DNA from: Propionispora sp. 2/2-37
GTDB lineage: Bacteria > Bacillota > Negativicutes > Propionisporales > Propionisporaceae
Reading direction: 5' to 3'
DNA length: 64,000 nt
Assembly: GCF_001298735.1 (NCBI RefSeq)
Contig: NZ_CYSP01000006.1
Span: 62,001-126,000 of the forward strand
In this document: piece by piece, positions 3,481 through 8,212 of the stretch
Position numbering within the stretch: the first letter of the stretch is position 1
Layout: every line of letters begins with the position of its first letter
Notes under the pieces: generated by a model
Database searches by the model: none
Seen by the model: the letters and a program-made list of their open reading frames with translations, nothing else
What the model was told of the DNA's origin: nothing
Made by a program: the position numbers and the translations under genes

Positions 3481-4167
3481 ATGAGACTAAAGAAATTTAG
3501 AAATAATCTCATGTTTGGCTTTTTAGTTGTGTCCATACTTTCAACGTCTTTTGTTGGTGCGTTTGCTTCTGCGGCTCAGGCCGCGGCTGCAGAGCAAGAG
3601 GTGACGGAAACTAGTAATCAAAAAAGCAAGGATCTAATTACCGGTTTGCTGGCAGTCGGATTGCTGGCTATTCTTGCAGGAGGCGGACATGATGATGACA
3701 AAGCGGCTGCCAGCAATAGTTCGACAGGAAATACTTCGACAGGGGATTCCCAAACCACAGGATCCAATTCGTCTACACCAGGAAGCAGCAGTGAAGTACA
3801 ACAGGCCTTTACCCTGTTAAACCAGGACCGTGCCAAGAACGGTTTGCCGGCATTAAAGCTGAATAGCCAATTGTCTGATTTGGCAGATGCTTATGCGGCA
3901 GATATGATCAGCCGCAATTACTTCTCCCACTACAATCCGGAAGGCCAGTCACCGTTCGATCGTATGCAGGAAGCCGGAATTAGTTATACCTATGCCGGAG
4001 AAAACCTGGCGACCAACACCAGCGTTGCGGCCGCAGAAACTGCGTTCATGAATAGTTCGGGACATCGGGCCAATATTTTGAGCACGAACTTTACCGAGGT
4101 TGGTCTTGGTGTTCGCCATGCGGCTAATGGCTCTGTATATGTAGTTCAAGAATTTATAAAACCTTAG
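3481..4167 (+). CDS. Secreted CAP (SCP/PR-1) domain protein
   Basis: The 228-residue product begins with a signal peptide (basic RLKKFRNN, hydrophobic stretch, AQAAAA near residue 35), then a short hydrophobic Gly-rich segment and a Ser/Thr/Asn-rich linker (about 75-100). Residues about 105-228 form a CAP domain resembling YkwD and SafA-associated CAP proteins, with LLNQDRAKNGLP, YFSHYNPEGQSPFDRM, YAGENLA and MNSSGHRANIL. The paired His and Glu residues of the CAP cleft are present. The Bacillus relatives are envelope or spore associated; activity is unknown. A good terminator follows. Confidence 0.88.
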   Translation: MRLKKFRNNLMFGFLVVSILSTSFVGAFASAAQAAAAEQEVTETSNQKSKDLITGLLAVGLLAILAGGGHDDDKAAASNSSTGNTSTGDSQTTGSNSSTPGSSSEVQQAFTLLNQDRAKNGLPALKLNSQLSDLADAYAADMISRNYFSHYNPEGQSPFDRMQEAGISYTYAGENLATNTSVAAAETAFMNSSGHRANILSTNFTEVGLGVRHAANGSVYVVQEFIKP

Positions 4168-4356: not shown

Positions 4357-4668
4357 TTACTTGTACATCATGCATTTGGGACAGACACCGTGATGATAGG
4401 CGGAATCAAACTCATGGCCACAGGTCGGACATACTTTGAATACTTTGTACTGACATATCCTGTATAACTTGTAAACACATTTGAACGTTTTAACACATTC
4501 TTTTTCCATTTTAGGCATTTTAGGGATGTCGCAATACATCGGTTCGTAACAGTGATATTTTCCTGGATGTTCTTTATAACAATCGTCCTTCATATAATGG
4601 TGGTGACAATAATCGTCTTTGGTATCATCACAGTCGTATTTGGGATAATAGGTGCCTTTTGAATACAT
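4357..4668 (-). CDS. Cys/His/Asp-rich protein with C-terminal zinc ribbon, probable spore coat component
   Basis: I do not recognise a named family. The 103-residue product starts with a Tyr/Asp/His/Cys-rich half (DDTKDDYCHHHYMKDDC near residues 14-30) and ends with a two-knuckle zinc ribbon, CPTCG near 80 and CPKC near 97. The middle has several more Cys residues among aromatic and Lys residues. AGGAGG lies 9 bases before ATG 4668. It is divergent from the SPOCS gene, and both carry a sigma-K-like promoter. The composition resembles small coat or exosporium proteins and suggests metal binding or disulfide cross-linking; function is inferred. Confidence 0.75.
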   Translation of the reverse strand: MYSKGTYYPKYDCDDTKDDYCHHHYMKDDCYKEHPGKYHCYEPMYCDIPKMPKMEKECVKTFKCVYKLYRICQYKVFKVCPTCGHEFDSAYHHGVCPKCMMYK

Positions 4669-4719
4669 TCCAGCACAACCTCCTAATTATATTTATTCAG
4701 CCGGAAACGGCTTCTGTTA

Positions 4720-4747
4720 CATACTATGTTATTTAACAAGAAAGTGT
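4720..4747 (-). promoter_or_regulatory. Possible sigma-K-type promoter of the Cys/His-rich gene
   Basis: On the minus strand AC (4747-4746) precedes CATAGTATG (4728-4720) by 17 bases. The 11-mer ACATAGTATGT is identical to that in front of yabG (980-990). The predicted transcript would begin near 4713, right at a small AGCCG/CGGCT hairpin (4712-4699). Confidence 0.4.
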
Positions 4748-4813
4748 TATGTCTATTTAACTGCTGATAATTTTAAATTTAACTTCCTGCCGCCAGCATT
4801 CATGTTTTTAGTC

Positions 4814-4841
4814 ACACAAAAAAATTAGCAGGCATATATAT
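4814..4841 (+). promoter_or_regulatory. Possible sigma-K-type promoter of the SPOCS operon
   Basis: AC at 4814-4815 is followed after 17 bases by CATATATAT at 4833. The predicted start near 4848 leaves a short leader with GGGGGG at 4858-4863 before GTG 4871. The -10 is one or two bases from consensus. Confidence 0.35.
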
Positions 4842-4870
4842 AAATAGAACATACAAAGGGGGGAATATAT

Positions 4871-5632
4871 GTGGACGATAAAGATCTCCGCCAAACGGTA
4901 AGTGCATCCGCTGGGATGAATTATTACAATCAATGTACATTAGGTACGCAAGCCGGGCCACAGACTATTATAGTACGTCAGGTTATTGCCGAAAAGGAAG
5001 AGCAGAAAGTACTCGATATTCATGTTGTTGTTCCGGAAAGAAAACCGTCTATTGAGCAAATTGTCGATGTTTTAGTTAAAGATGTAGAAATTGATTGTGT
5101 TGATGTTATCACTGACAAGGTAATTGTACGAGGAGAGTTTGATGTTAAAGGTATCTATGTGGCTGCACTTCCTGATCAGCCGGTGCATGCAGTAGAAATT
5201 AGGCACTTTAAATGGACGCAGGATCTTCACATGCCGGGTGTTCGCAAAGGTATGGATGCTGACGCCAGCGTTATTATTGAGTTTGTGGATTATGACCTGG
5301 ATGAATGGACACGTGCTTACAAGCATAAGAACTATGAATATGATGACTGCGACACGGATCCCCATTTTGACGACTGCGATACCGACGATGACCACTGTGG
5401 GCATCATCACCATCATGATGACTGCGATACCGACGACAGTCATTGCGGGCATCATCATCATGATGACTGCGATACCGATGACAGTCATTGCGGGCATCAT
5501 CACCATCATCATCATGATTGCCGGGAATTCGACGTTTCCGTTGTGCTGAAAATTACAGCTAAGGTTATGGTTGATCGGGAAGTACAAGTTGCTGCTGCTG
5601 CTGGTGAAATGCCTTCAGCACCAAAAGGATAA
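4871..5632 (+). CDS. SPOCS-domain (DUF3794) protein with an inserted His/Asp/Cys repeat
   Basis: The 253-residue product starts at GTG 4871, 7 bases after GGGGGG. Residues about 33-150 form a SPOCS domain (ERKPSIEQIVDVLVKDVEI, DKVIVRGEF, ALPDQPVHAVE), the fold of SipL/SpoVID-type coat assembly proteins. At about 155-217 comes a repeat of DDCDTDD-HCGHHHH units (three full units plus a partial one), after which the last SPOCS strand resumes (FDVSVVLKITAKVMV). Comparison with the next gene shows that the repeat interrupts the domain in a loop rather than being a tail. About 20 His plus many Asp and Cys make a strong candidate metal-binding surface. Probable spore coat or exosporium protein. Confidence 0.82.
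   Translation: MDDKDLRQTVSASAGMNYYNQCTLGTQAGPQTIIVRQVIAEKEEQKVLDIHVVVPERKPSIEQIVDVLVKDVEIDCVDVITDKVIVRGEFDVKGIYVAALPDQPVHAVEIRHFKWTQDLHMPGVRKGMDADASVIIEFVDYDLDEWTRAYKHKNYEYDDCDTDPHFDDCDTDDDHCGHHHHHDDCDTDDSHCGHHHHDDCDTDDSHCGHHHHHHHDCREFDVSVVLKITAKVMVDREVQVAAAAGEMPSAPKG
5369..5515 (+). repeat. In-frame tandem repeat coding for DDCDTDD-HCGHHHH units
   Basis: Three units of 48, 45 and 54 bases (5369-5416, 5417-5461, 5462-5515), each starting GA(C/T)GACTGCGATACCGA and ending in a CAT/CAC run. Length differences come from the number of His codons. A degenerate partial unit precedes it at 5342-5368. Likely prone to slippage between strains. Confidence 0.9.
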
Positions 5633-5676
5633 GAACTTGTGCGCTATCATCTGCAAGATGAAAAGGGGGGAAGAGA

Positions 5677-6678
5677 ATGGCTGATGATCTAAGACAAAGT
5701 TCAGGTTCTACAGGTTCTACATCCACTACGGCTGTATCCGTCAGTGGAACAGGTACGTCAGATAATGCGCAGGTCATCTGCGGGTGCCCGGAACCTGGCC
5801 TGGAAACGATAGAAGTCGAACAGGTTCTTGGCGCCGAGATGGAGCAAAGAGTTGTTGAGCTTGATATGTTTGTACCGTCGCAAAAACCGGATATTGAACA
5901 AGTAATTGACGTTTATGTCAAGGACTTGGAAATTAATACGGTGGATATTATTCCGGATAAAGTGATTGTTCGCGGCGATCTTGAGGTAAAAGTTATGTAT
6001 GTGGCCGATCTGCCCGATCAGCCGGTGCATGCTTTTGAACGTTCTCATGTGCGGTTTACAAGAGATGTCCAAATTCCCGGGGCTTTACCGGAAATGACGG
6101 CTAAAGCCGACGTGCAGGTTGAATACATTGACTATGACTTCTGCTGCCATGAACCACGTAAAGTGCATATTACGATCGTATTGAAATTCTGGGTCCGAGT
6201 TGTAGACACTACACAAATGGATGTATATGCTTTAACTCCAATTGATCAGGTAGGACAGAGTGAAGCTGTTTCAGCTACTACGGCAAGCAGCGACTCAACA
6301 TCGGCAAGTTCTGTTACGGCAACTTCCGGTAGTGCGGCCACTGCGTCTAGCGGTGAAACAACATTGGCATCAGGGGCGGCCAGTGCCTTTACGAGTGAAA
6401 TGGCAACAGCTTCTCAGTTTGAGGGATATGGAGAAGAGAATGTATATGTTTCCGGGGTTACGCCGACGGTGGGTACTCAGCCGACAGTCAGCGGCACAGC
6501 TACTGTGACCGGTTCTGTAGTTAATGTGCGCAGTGGTCCGGGGACGAACTTCCCTATTGTAACCAAAGTAAGGCAAGGCGATGTAGTTACCATTCGAGAG
6601 CAGGCCTTCGGTTGGTACCGGGTGGTACTGTCGGATAATGCCACCATTGGCTGGATTGCCAGCTGGCTACTTGGGTAA
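5677..6678 (+). CDS. SPOCS-domain (DUF3794) protein with C-terminal SH3b domain
   Basis: The 333-residue product is a tandem paralogue of the upstream gene (44-base gap). Residues about 40-170 form the SPOCS domain (SQKPDIEQVIDVYVKDLEI, DKVIVRGDL, DLPDQPVHAFE), with only a short FCCHEPRK turn where the neighbour has its metal-type repeat. A Ser/Thr/Ala-rich linker (about 190-265) leads to a bacterial SH3 domain (about 270-333, VNVRSGPGTNFPIVTKV and GWIASWLLG), a module that usually binds peptidoglycan or other wall polymer. It could therefore anchor a coat complex to the cortex. ATG follows AAAGGGGGG AAGAG. Confidence 0.85.
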   Translation: MADDLRQSSGSTGSTSTTAVSVSGTGTSDNAQVICGCPEPGLETIEVEQVLGAEMEQRVVELDMFVPSQKPDIEQVIDVYVKDLEINTVDIIPDKVIVRGDLEVKVMYVADLPDQPVHAFERSHVRFTRDVQIPGALPEMTAKADVQVEYIDYDFCCHEPRKVHITIVLKFWVRVVDTTQMDVYALTPIDQVGQSEAVSATTASSDSTSASSVTATSGSAATASSGETTLASGAASAFTSEMATASQFEGYGEENVYVSGVTPTVGTQPTVSGTATVTGSVVNVRSGPGTNFPIVTKVRQGDVVTIREQAFGWYRVVLSDNATIGWIASWLLG

Positions 6679-6814: not shown

Positions 6815-7615
6815 ATGTTGTCAGCCGTCAAATATCTTGGACCGGTTGGCATGGGAGTGACGTCGCCGCAACTTTTTCTGGCTGATGATCATTGTGTATA
6901 TATAGTAAAACTGCAGAACAACCGGTTGGGTCCTAAGATACTGGCTAATGAACTGTTAGCCGCACAGATTGGCAAAAGCCTGGCATTAACATTCCCGCCA
7001 AGCGATATCATTTTTTTGGATGAAAAGATCATAAAAGAAAATCGCCGTTTATGGAGAACACGGGTGCCGGTGGGAATTCATTTTGCCAGCAAATACATAA
7101 AACAGAATCGATATGTCAGCAGGACAAATTTAGCGAAGGCCGGTAACATAAGCGATATGGCGGGTGTGGTTTTATTTGATCATTTGTTTCATAATTTTGA
7201 TCGAACAGGAAATCACAAAAATTTATTGTTATGTCAGGAACAAGAACATTTTCGAATATATGCCATTGATAATTCCCATTTGTTTGGTAAAGGACGATGG
7301 GATTCGCGTTTACTGGTTCGTCTGATGGATAGAATCGTTATTAACAAACAGCGTACTTACGGGACGTTGCTCAAATATTTTCTAAAGCCTGAGCATTTCA
7401 GCAAGTATGTTAAAAGTATGCGTACGCTGGATGACGGGTATTGGAACGATCTGGTCGGTTCCATTCCGGAAGAATGGTTGCCGCTGCCAAGTGAACGTGA
7501 GGTTTTGCTTCGGTTTTTATTAAGGCGGCGGGATATGGTTGATAAGATAGCCGAGCGTATTTTTTCACTAATCCCGGATAAAAACCGGAGTGCCGATATG
7601 AACCAGAGCATATAA
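6815..7615 (+). CDS. HipA-like kinase family protein
   Basis: The 266-residue product looks like the single-domain HipA-like kinase family: VYIVKLQNN with a phosphate-binding Lys near residue 31, FDHLFHNFDRTGNHKNLLL near 122-140 that supplies the catalytic Asp and metal-binding Asn, and YAIDNSHLFG near 149-158 in the DFG-like position. No HipB-like antitoxin is next to it, so it is not an obvious toxin-antitoxin pair. Substrate unknown. Its end overlaps the convergent L,D-transpeptidase gene by 48 bases. ATG 6815 follows GGGAGGAAGGGGAG. Confidence 0.65.
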   Translation: MLSAVKYLGPVGMGVTSPQLFLADDHCVYIVKLQNNRLGPKILANELLAAQIGKSLALTFPPSDIIFLDEKIIKENRRLWRTRVPVGIHFASKYIKQNRYVSRTNLAKAGNISDMAGVVLFDHLFHNFDRTGNHKNLLLCQEQEHFRIYAIDNSHLFGKGRWDSRLLVRLMDRIVINKQRTYGTLLKYFLKPEHFSKYVKSMRTLDDGYWNDLVGSIPEEWLPLPSEREVLLRFLLRRRDMVDKIAERIFSLIPDKNRSADMNQSI

Positions 7616-8212
7616 TTCCTCCACATTAGCGTTATGCATACGGATGCAGCCGTTGGAGACCATCTGGCCGATCAGCCAGGGGCGGTTGGTGCCGTGTATG
7701 CCGTAAGCGTCAAAATTAAGTCCCAGCCATCTTGTGCCCAGTACGCCTCCGGGATTCATGACTTTTAAGGCGATCGAAAAATTTCCTAAAGGCGTAGGGG
7801 TAGCAGATTTGCCAATTCCTATAGGATACTGCCGTAAGGGGGAATTACCGTCAAATAAAGTAAGCTGACGGGGCTGCCGGGCAATACGAATGTTGGCACG
7901 GGGCAGGGACAGGGAAGGATGGTTGCGCTGCACGGAGCGATCGGGAGGGATGAGTGAAGTGCTAATAGCTTTTTCCAGGCGGCAGTAGGTGACGGGATCA
8001 ATCCTGCCGGTTGCAGGCAGGTTTTCCGATAATTGAAATGAACGAACGGCAGCAGCGGTATCCTCATCATACGTGCTGTGAAAGGAACCAGTATATAACC
8101 CACGTACCGACAATAGCTTTTGTATCTGCCCGACTATCGGGTGCGTATAATTGCTATTTATTTTTTGTAAAAGAAGTAATGAATAATGGGGATAAAGTTT
8201 TCGTATATTCAC
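7568..8212 (-). CDS. L,D-transpeptidase (YkuD) with N-terminal peptidoglycan-binding domain
   Basis: The 214-residue product starts at GTG 8212 behind AAAGGAGATATTTCC. An N-terminal peptidoglycan-binding repeat (about 20-85, VGQIQKLLSVRGLYTGSF to VTYCRLEKA) precedes a YkuD catalytic domain (about 108-212) with HGTNRPWLIG and the active-site SNGCIRM, including the Cys nucleophile. Such enzymes make 3-3 cross-links or attach proteins to peptidoglycan. There is no clear signal peptide, as in several spore-associated YkuD proteins, which hints at action in the mother cell or forespore. Its 3' end overlaps the convergent kinase gene. Confidence 0.88.
   Translation of the reverse strand: MNIRKLYPHYSLLLLQKINSNYTHPIVGQIQKLLSVRGLYTGSFHSTYDEDTAAAVRSFQLSENLPATGRIDPVTYCRLEKAISTSLIPPDRSVQRNHPSLSLPRANIRIARQPRQLTLFDGNSPLRQYPIGIGKSATPTPLGNFSIALKVMNPGGVLGTRWLGLNFDAYGIHGTNRPWLIGQMVSNGCIRMHNANVEELYALVHIGTPVFIRD

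Follow-up and report, generated by a model that had tools for sequence, protein, structure and literature searches.

The window, a 64,000-nt stretch of the 4.12-Mb genome of Propionispora sp. 2/2-37, carries two adjacent genes for SPOCS-domain proteins, here called c1 and c2, and a divergently oriented gene for a Cys/His-rich protein, here called the partner. All three open reading frames were found where the original prediction had placed them. The locus comprises the following features.

3481–4167, plus strand: CAP-domain protein of the spore YkwD type (PF00188; TIGR02909 below its cut-off)
4357–4668, minus strand: Cys/His/Asp-rich partner, 103 aa, with a variable N-terminus and a conserved end (about 4372–4431)
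4720–4748, minus strand: putative partner promoter, AACA, 16 bp, CATAGTATG
4813–4842, plus strand: putative c1 promoter of mother-cell sigma type, CACA (4813–4816), 16 bp, CATATATATA (4833–4842)
4871–5632, plus strand: c1, single-SPOCS protein with a predicted loop insertion, 253 aa, GTG start (PF12673, E 9.3e-11)
5297–5521, plus strand: predicted disordered Asp/His/Cys insert of c1, residues 143–217, between the last two strands of the SPOCS fold
5368–5509, plus strand: tandem DNA repeat within the insert, three copies of a 45-bp period encoding DDCDTDDxHCGHHHH units (Tandem Repeats Finder score 207)
5621–5629, plus strand: C-terminal tripeptide PKG of c1
5677–6678, plus strand: c2, SPOCS domain (5890–6138; PF12673, E 3e-16), Ser/Thr-rich linker and C-terminal SH3b domain (6514–6672; SH3_3, E 6e-13)
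6815–7615, plus strand: HipA-like kinase directly downstream of c2 (PF20613, E 2e-19; weak Fam20C match)
7568–8212, minus strand: L,D-transpeptidase (YkuD) with a peptidoglycan-binding domain, convergent

Both c1 (42.3 bits) and c2 (60 bits) score above the curated cut-off of 23.6 for the SipL/SPOCS family (PF12673), and the genome holds one further SPOCS place, a 211-aa frame on contig 24. The NCBIfam names for c1 were uninformative. In the AlphaFold model of c1, built on a 13-row alignment, the core is confidently all-beta: residues 31–142 form beta strands with pLDDT mostly >90, residues 148–213 of the insert fall below 50, and the insert is flanked by confident strands (129–142 and 219–240, the last strand at pLDDT about 92). 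Comparison of the model with solved structures gave no match at E <0.001, and no solved SPOCS structure was found for comparison. When the two profiles are aligned, c1 and c2 correspond from end to end of the domain (hhalign E 6e-77; 159 columns, 44% identity), and the only large gap is the one caused by the c1 repeat. The PF12673 match ends at residue 143 and the insert starts directly after it, past the end of the Pfam model; therefore, its position within the fold is evident only from the AlphaFold model and from the alignment with c2. Since the confident beta fold is broken by the disordered repeat and then completed by its last strand, the Asp/His/Cys repeat is, according to the model, a loop insertion inside the SPOCS fold. 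Both the loop insertion and the full-length alignment of the two paralogues had been proposed in the original prediction and are borne out here, while its estimate of about 60 residues of repeat is better divided into an insert of about 75 aa, counted from one flanking strand to the other, and a repeat proper of about 55 aa.

A set of 151 genomes drawn from the Negativicutes, the class being assigned by way of the named relatives, was searched for SPOCS proteins and SpoIVA, which were present in 53 and 51 genomes, respectively (both in 49, SPOCS only in four, SpoIVA only in two, neither in 96). SPOCS tracks SpoIVA across the Negativicutes, and draft genomes can explain the exceptions. The original prediction had suggested looking for the gene set among the Sporomusaceae, which proved too narrow, as the set is present across many families of the class. 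The c1 and c2 genes are adjacent on one strand in 52/52 complete loci, the 53rd being cut by a contig end. The SPOCS protein of locus L009, which has no linked c2 and looks like the third paralogues described below, was for that reason not counted in the c1 statistics. The insert lies at the same site in all 52 complete c1 orthologues, none of which carries the repeat at the C-terminus or elsewhere, and it ranges from 24 to 153 aa in length (median 59 aa; 63 aa in L123). On average, it consists of 27% Asp, 21% His and 9% Cys (58% for the three together), against 10%, 2% and 0.6% in the core, and its mean pairwise identity is 30%, against 77% for the core. Thus, the composition of the loop has been kept and its sequence has not. 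Chance or an annotation artefact as the source of the loop is ruled out by the 52 orthologues.

These data bear on the view that the loop is a passive spacer, namely a fast-evolving low-complexity linker in which Asp, His and Cys accumulate by repeat slippage and which serves solubility or spacing only. The repeat array of c1 fits such an origin, as do the hypervariability of the loop and the Pro/Glu-rich character of some loops. The corresponding turn of c2 is short in 25 of the 27 aligned orthologues, the exceptions being L088, with a His-rich insert, and L124, which is frame-shifted; the turn is long also in the third paralogues of L128, L129 and L173, which, together with the c2 of L088, indicates that the site tolerates insertion. 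However, all 52 orthologues have retained the insert, even though c2 closes the same fold with a short turn; the Asp, His and Cys content of the insert averages 58% across the class in spite of the sequence turnover, and the short c2 turn is itself often made of Cys and His (FCCHE, HHHT). We therefore regard a mere spacer as quite unlikely.

Alternatively, the loops and the Cys/His-rich partner could form a metal store or buffer, as in the metal-loaded layer of the original prediction; Zn, Ni, Cu or Mn would then be deposited in the coat, either to be used at germination or to protect against metals and oxidants. The clusters HHHH, CGHHHH and DDCDD are reminiscent of the ligands in His tags and metallothioneins. 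A sequence search of the PDB with the c1 profile gave weak matches alone, most of them probable His tags; the insert part matched mainly chain ends of Fab constructs which, judging from the match list, are probably such tags. Yet His makes up just 0–6% of the inserts of L086, L099, L115, L116 and L121, several of which have Pro- or Glu-rich loops, and the locus persists in these lineages. With most His gone from several lineages, a strict role in metal loading becomes less convincing, and, as far as composition can tell, any one strict metal function of the loop is disfavoured. In addition, one loop per scaffold unit would give a modest capacity, and the examined stretch of the window showed neither a metal transporter nor a metallochaperone beside these genes. 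A metal store thus appears improbable. Because some His-poor loops are Pro/Glu-rich, the common property of the loops may be only that of a long, polar, disordered stretch.

The partner has a variable N-terminus rich in Asp, Cys, His and Met, and a conserved end with the motifs KECVKT.K...KLYRIC..R.YK.C and CPxCGHEFD..x.G.CPKC (here CPTCGHEFD...CPKC). No match over the cut-off was obtained in Pfam or NCBIfam, and none in the PDB; the best zinc-ribbon family score was 18.8 bits, below the Pfam cut-off of 30.8. An AlphaFold model from four sequences has a mean pLDDT of 43, with the C-terminal ribbon at about 70–75. The zinc ribbon proposed for this end accordingly stands in part: two CxxC pairs are conserved in nearly all of 40 orthologues, but the family score stays below the threshold. 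The partner lies beside c1 in 40 loci and is divergent in 40/40; 39 of these loci have a gap of 58–1744 bp and the remaining locus a gap of 4175 bp. It occurs somewhere in 45/151 genomes. The co-occurrence of the three genes is therefore conserved as foreseen, given the invariable c1-c2 pair. Near c1, the partner was undetected in about eight loci with enough upstream sequence, most His-poor loci included. Loci without a partner tend to have His-poor c1 loops (Mann-Whitney p 0.001; not resolvable from phylogeny). We considered tying the presence of the partner to His-rich loops but dropped the claim, since the tree offers only about five independent contrasts, one of them on supported branches.

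Among the 27 aligned c2 orthologues, the SPOCS domain was found in 27 and the SH3_3 domain, not LysM, in the C-terminal position of 26. The SPOCS definition names SpoVID, CotE and SipL (PMC10867305), and c2 resembles SpoVID and the SipL of Clostridioides difficile in combining PF12673 with a small C-terminal binding domain and in co-occurring with SpoIVA. In contrast, SipL has three DUF3794/SPOCS domains plus LysM and SpoVID has SPOCS plus LysM, whereas c1 and c2 have one SPOCS domain each and c2 has SH3b instead of LysM. Outside the Negativicutes, the c1/c2 profile matches among those listed were SipL-sized frames of 428–682 aa. SpoIVA is a ligand of the C-terminal LysM domain in C. difficile SipL, and peptidoglycan is not bound by the LysM domain of SpoVID (PMC6436350). 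By analogy, contact of the c2 SH3b domain with SpoIVA is at least as likely as the cortex anchoring envisaged in the original prediction.

The c1 protein ends in PKG in 49 and in AKG in three of the 52 complete orthologues. KG is the C-terminal end of 35/51 c2 proteins, and the third paralogues end likewise (the [PA]KG loci are L076–L129, L173, L174 and L182). The fetched loci contain 700 distinct ORFs of >=150 aa, and the 88 of these with a [PATV]KG end are all SPOCS proteins; when six whole genomes were searched for PxxPKG ends, SPOCS proteins were the only real ORFs to match, the other matches being fragments of <=30 aa. The C-terminal [PA]KG of c1 is an unreported feature, and this SPOCS-specific P-K-G constitutes a second, independent lead. 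As to its role, docking, processing or Lys cross-linking are guesses. The last of these enters a further explanation of the loop, modelled on Cys-rich exosporium proteins and transglutaminase substrates, in which loop Cys and the C-terminal Lys would cross-link c1, c2 and the partner into an insoluble coat by disulfide or other covalent bonds. The C. difficile exosporium is built by the Cys-rich CdeC and CdeM (PMC6101409), Cys persists in most His-poor loops at an overall mean of 9%, and the terminal Lys is present in every complete c1 and in most c2. Nevertheless, cross-linking leaves the enrichment of Asp and His unexplained, and some loops have just 2–3 Cys; we consider it unlikely.

Regions upstream of c1-type genes contain CACA (or AACA), exactly 16 bp and CATATATAT[A/G] in 50/53 cases, with a GGGGGG-type ribosome site close behind the motif, and at full stringency this motif occurs at one place in the whole Propionispora genome. 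The partner pattern recurs upstream of most partner orthologues. Sigma-E and sigma-K are factors of the mother cell, the compartment that makes the coat, and the -10 consensus of sigma-K is CATAnnnTA. The putative partner promoter, AACA-N16-CATAGTATG, fits sigma-K, and the c1 -10 element fits sigma-E or sigma-K only with a mismatch; from these sequences, we infer mother-cell-type transcription of c1 and the partner.

The gene set extends beyond the original trio, as a kinase, an L,D-transpeptidase and a CAP protein are linked to it class-wide in spore-forming Negativicutes. The transpeptidase (44/51 loci) and the CAP/YkwD protein (38/51 loci) suggest that the SPOCS pair lies in a spore-envelope gene neighbourhood. 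In 47/51 loci, the kinase gene follows c2 in the same orientation, and its catalytic-type residues D147, N151, N154 and D170 (open-frame numbering) are kept in at least 95% of the 47 orthologues. This HipA_2/Fam20C-like enzyme is a candidate coat kinase for the c2 linker, which contains 26% Ser plus Thr between SPOCS and SH3b (48 orthologues). The kinase CotH acts on the Ser-rich part of CotB (PMC7821199), and by analogy the c2 linker is a possible substrate. The locus thus resembles the CotB-CotG-CotH module in pairing a kinase with a coat protein that has a Ser-rich segment, but here the kinase is of HipA_2 type and c2 phosphorylation is conjectural.

The closest functional precedent for c1 is CotE, the outer-coat morphogenetic SPOCS protein of Bacillus subtilis and Bacillus cereus, which like c1 is a small single-SPOCS protein. 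Membership of c1 in the CotE family (PF10628) is ruled out, as the CotE model gave no match; the family was found in 0/151 genomes, this one included, with a positive B. subtilis control. In B. cereus, CotE trimers need Ca2+ to assemble into a meshwork, because a disordered tail containing 15 acidic residues blocks assembly when Ca2+ is missing; CotE lacking this tail no longer requires Ca2+ (PMC11980541). Similarly, c1 combines a structured domain with a disordered acidic segment, metal gating being known in CotE (PMC11980541). Unlike the C-terminal tail of CotE, the disordered segment of c1 is an internal loop, and it is also rich in His and Cys. From the B. cereus precedent and the absence of CotE in the 151 genomes, we think that c1 is CotE-like, with a metal-sensitive disordered segment that has moved inside the domain as a loop and gained His and Cys. 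Contacts between the coat proteins CotY and CotVW are driven by His-rich tails (PMC12630357). The c1 protein and its partner share with CdeC/CdeM and CotY/ExsY the features of Cys-rich, repeat-bearing spore-surface assembly proteins, CotY also having a His-rich tail; however, no SPOCS domain is described for those proteins, and the partner here is zinc-ribbon-like.

Taken as a whole, the locus is best explained as a Negativicutes spore-coat (basement or inner coat) assembly locus in which c1 is a CotE-like scaffold with a metal- or redox-responsive loop, a reading to which we give about even chances. The coat-type scaffold of the original prediction is favoured by these comparisons, with the coat location itself being inferred. 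In this scheme, c1 would self-assemble as a SPOCS scaffold in a CotE-like role, and its disordered, acidic, His/Cys-rich loop would be a regulatory and cross-linking element. In the free state, the charge of the loop would keep scaffold units apart; with Ca2+ or transition metals, and later disulfides, the loop would condense and join neighbours. The c2 protein would occupy the SpoVID/SipL position, its SPOCS domain pairing with c1 and its SH3b domain contacting a putative ligand, SpoIVA or peptidoglycan. The partner, as a late (sigma-K-type) coat component, may co-assemble with the loop via metal or disulfide bridges.

A search of the open-licence literature found no description of these proteins, in agreement with the earlier statement that the set is undescribed. 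SPOCS coat scaffolds have precedents; apparently new, to the extent of this search, are the loop of metal type inside the domain, the zinc-ribbon partner and the locus shared across the class. Since the loop and its surrounding genes are kept across the class, they represent a real, apparently undescribed element of Negativicutes spore building. What is known of coat assembly comes from Bacillus and C. difficile. The spore-forming Negativicutes, a class of outer-membrane spore formers, were not yet genetically tractable according to a 2021 review (PMC7985256), so their coat is nearly blank. The locus offers a conserved candidate coat set for them, a testable equivalent of CotE/SpoVID/SipL, and its dozens of loop sequences on one scaffold are a natural experiment for asking if coat assembly depends on metals in the way that B. 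cereus CotE depends on Ca2+. A bolder proposal would be a distinct Negativicutes coat basement replacing CotE/SpoVID of Bacilli and SipL of Clostridia, with a fast-evolving metal/redox-switch loop on a SPOCS scaffold, a zinc-ribbon partner and a SPOCS-specific P-K-G read by a processing or docking factor; this we hold to be rather doubtful, though conceivable.

Several further SPOCS proteins were observed. Third, unlinked paralogues (L128 3504–4136, L129 3386–4048, L173, L174 and L182) carry a variable insert at the same turn; depending on the genome, this insert is rich in His/Cys, Lys-Pro-Cys or Tyr/Asp. The excluded protein L009 (4902–5828, Sporomusaceae UBA7701) has five HHHHDDCDDKCDHK-type units without a linked c2 and is probably of the third-paralogue type with an even longer array. 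One genus (group g30: G036, G083, G107, G111, G119, G127 and G147) has 8–9 SPOCS places per genome, some of them arranged as short tandem clusters whose SPOCS proteins are very divergent (L130, L131). Outside the SPOCS proteins, letters like those of the c1 loop recur in the N-terminal HHHHHDxCxC repeat of a heavy-metal P-type ATPase-like protein from Lachnospiraceae (L010, 4943–7405), which would represent convergent use of this composition in a metal-transport protein.
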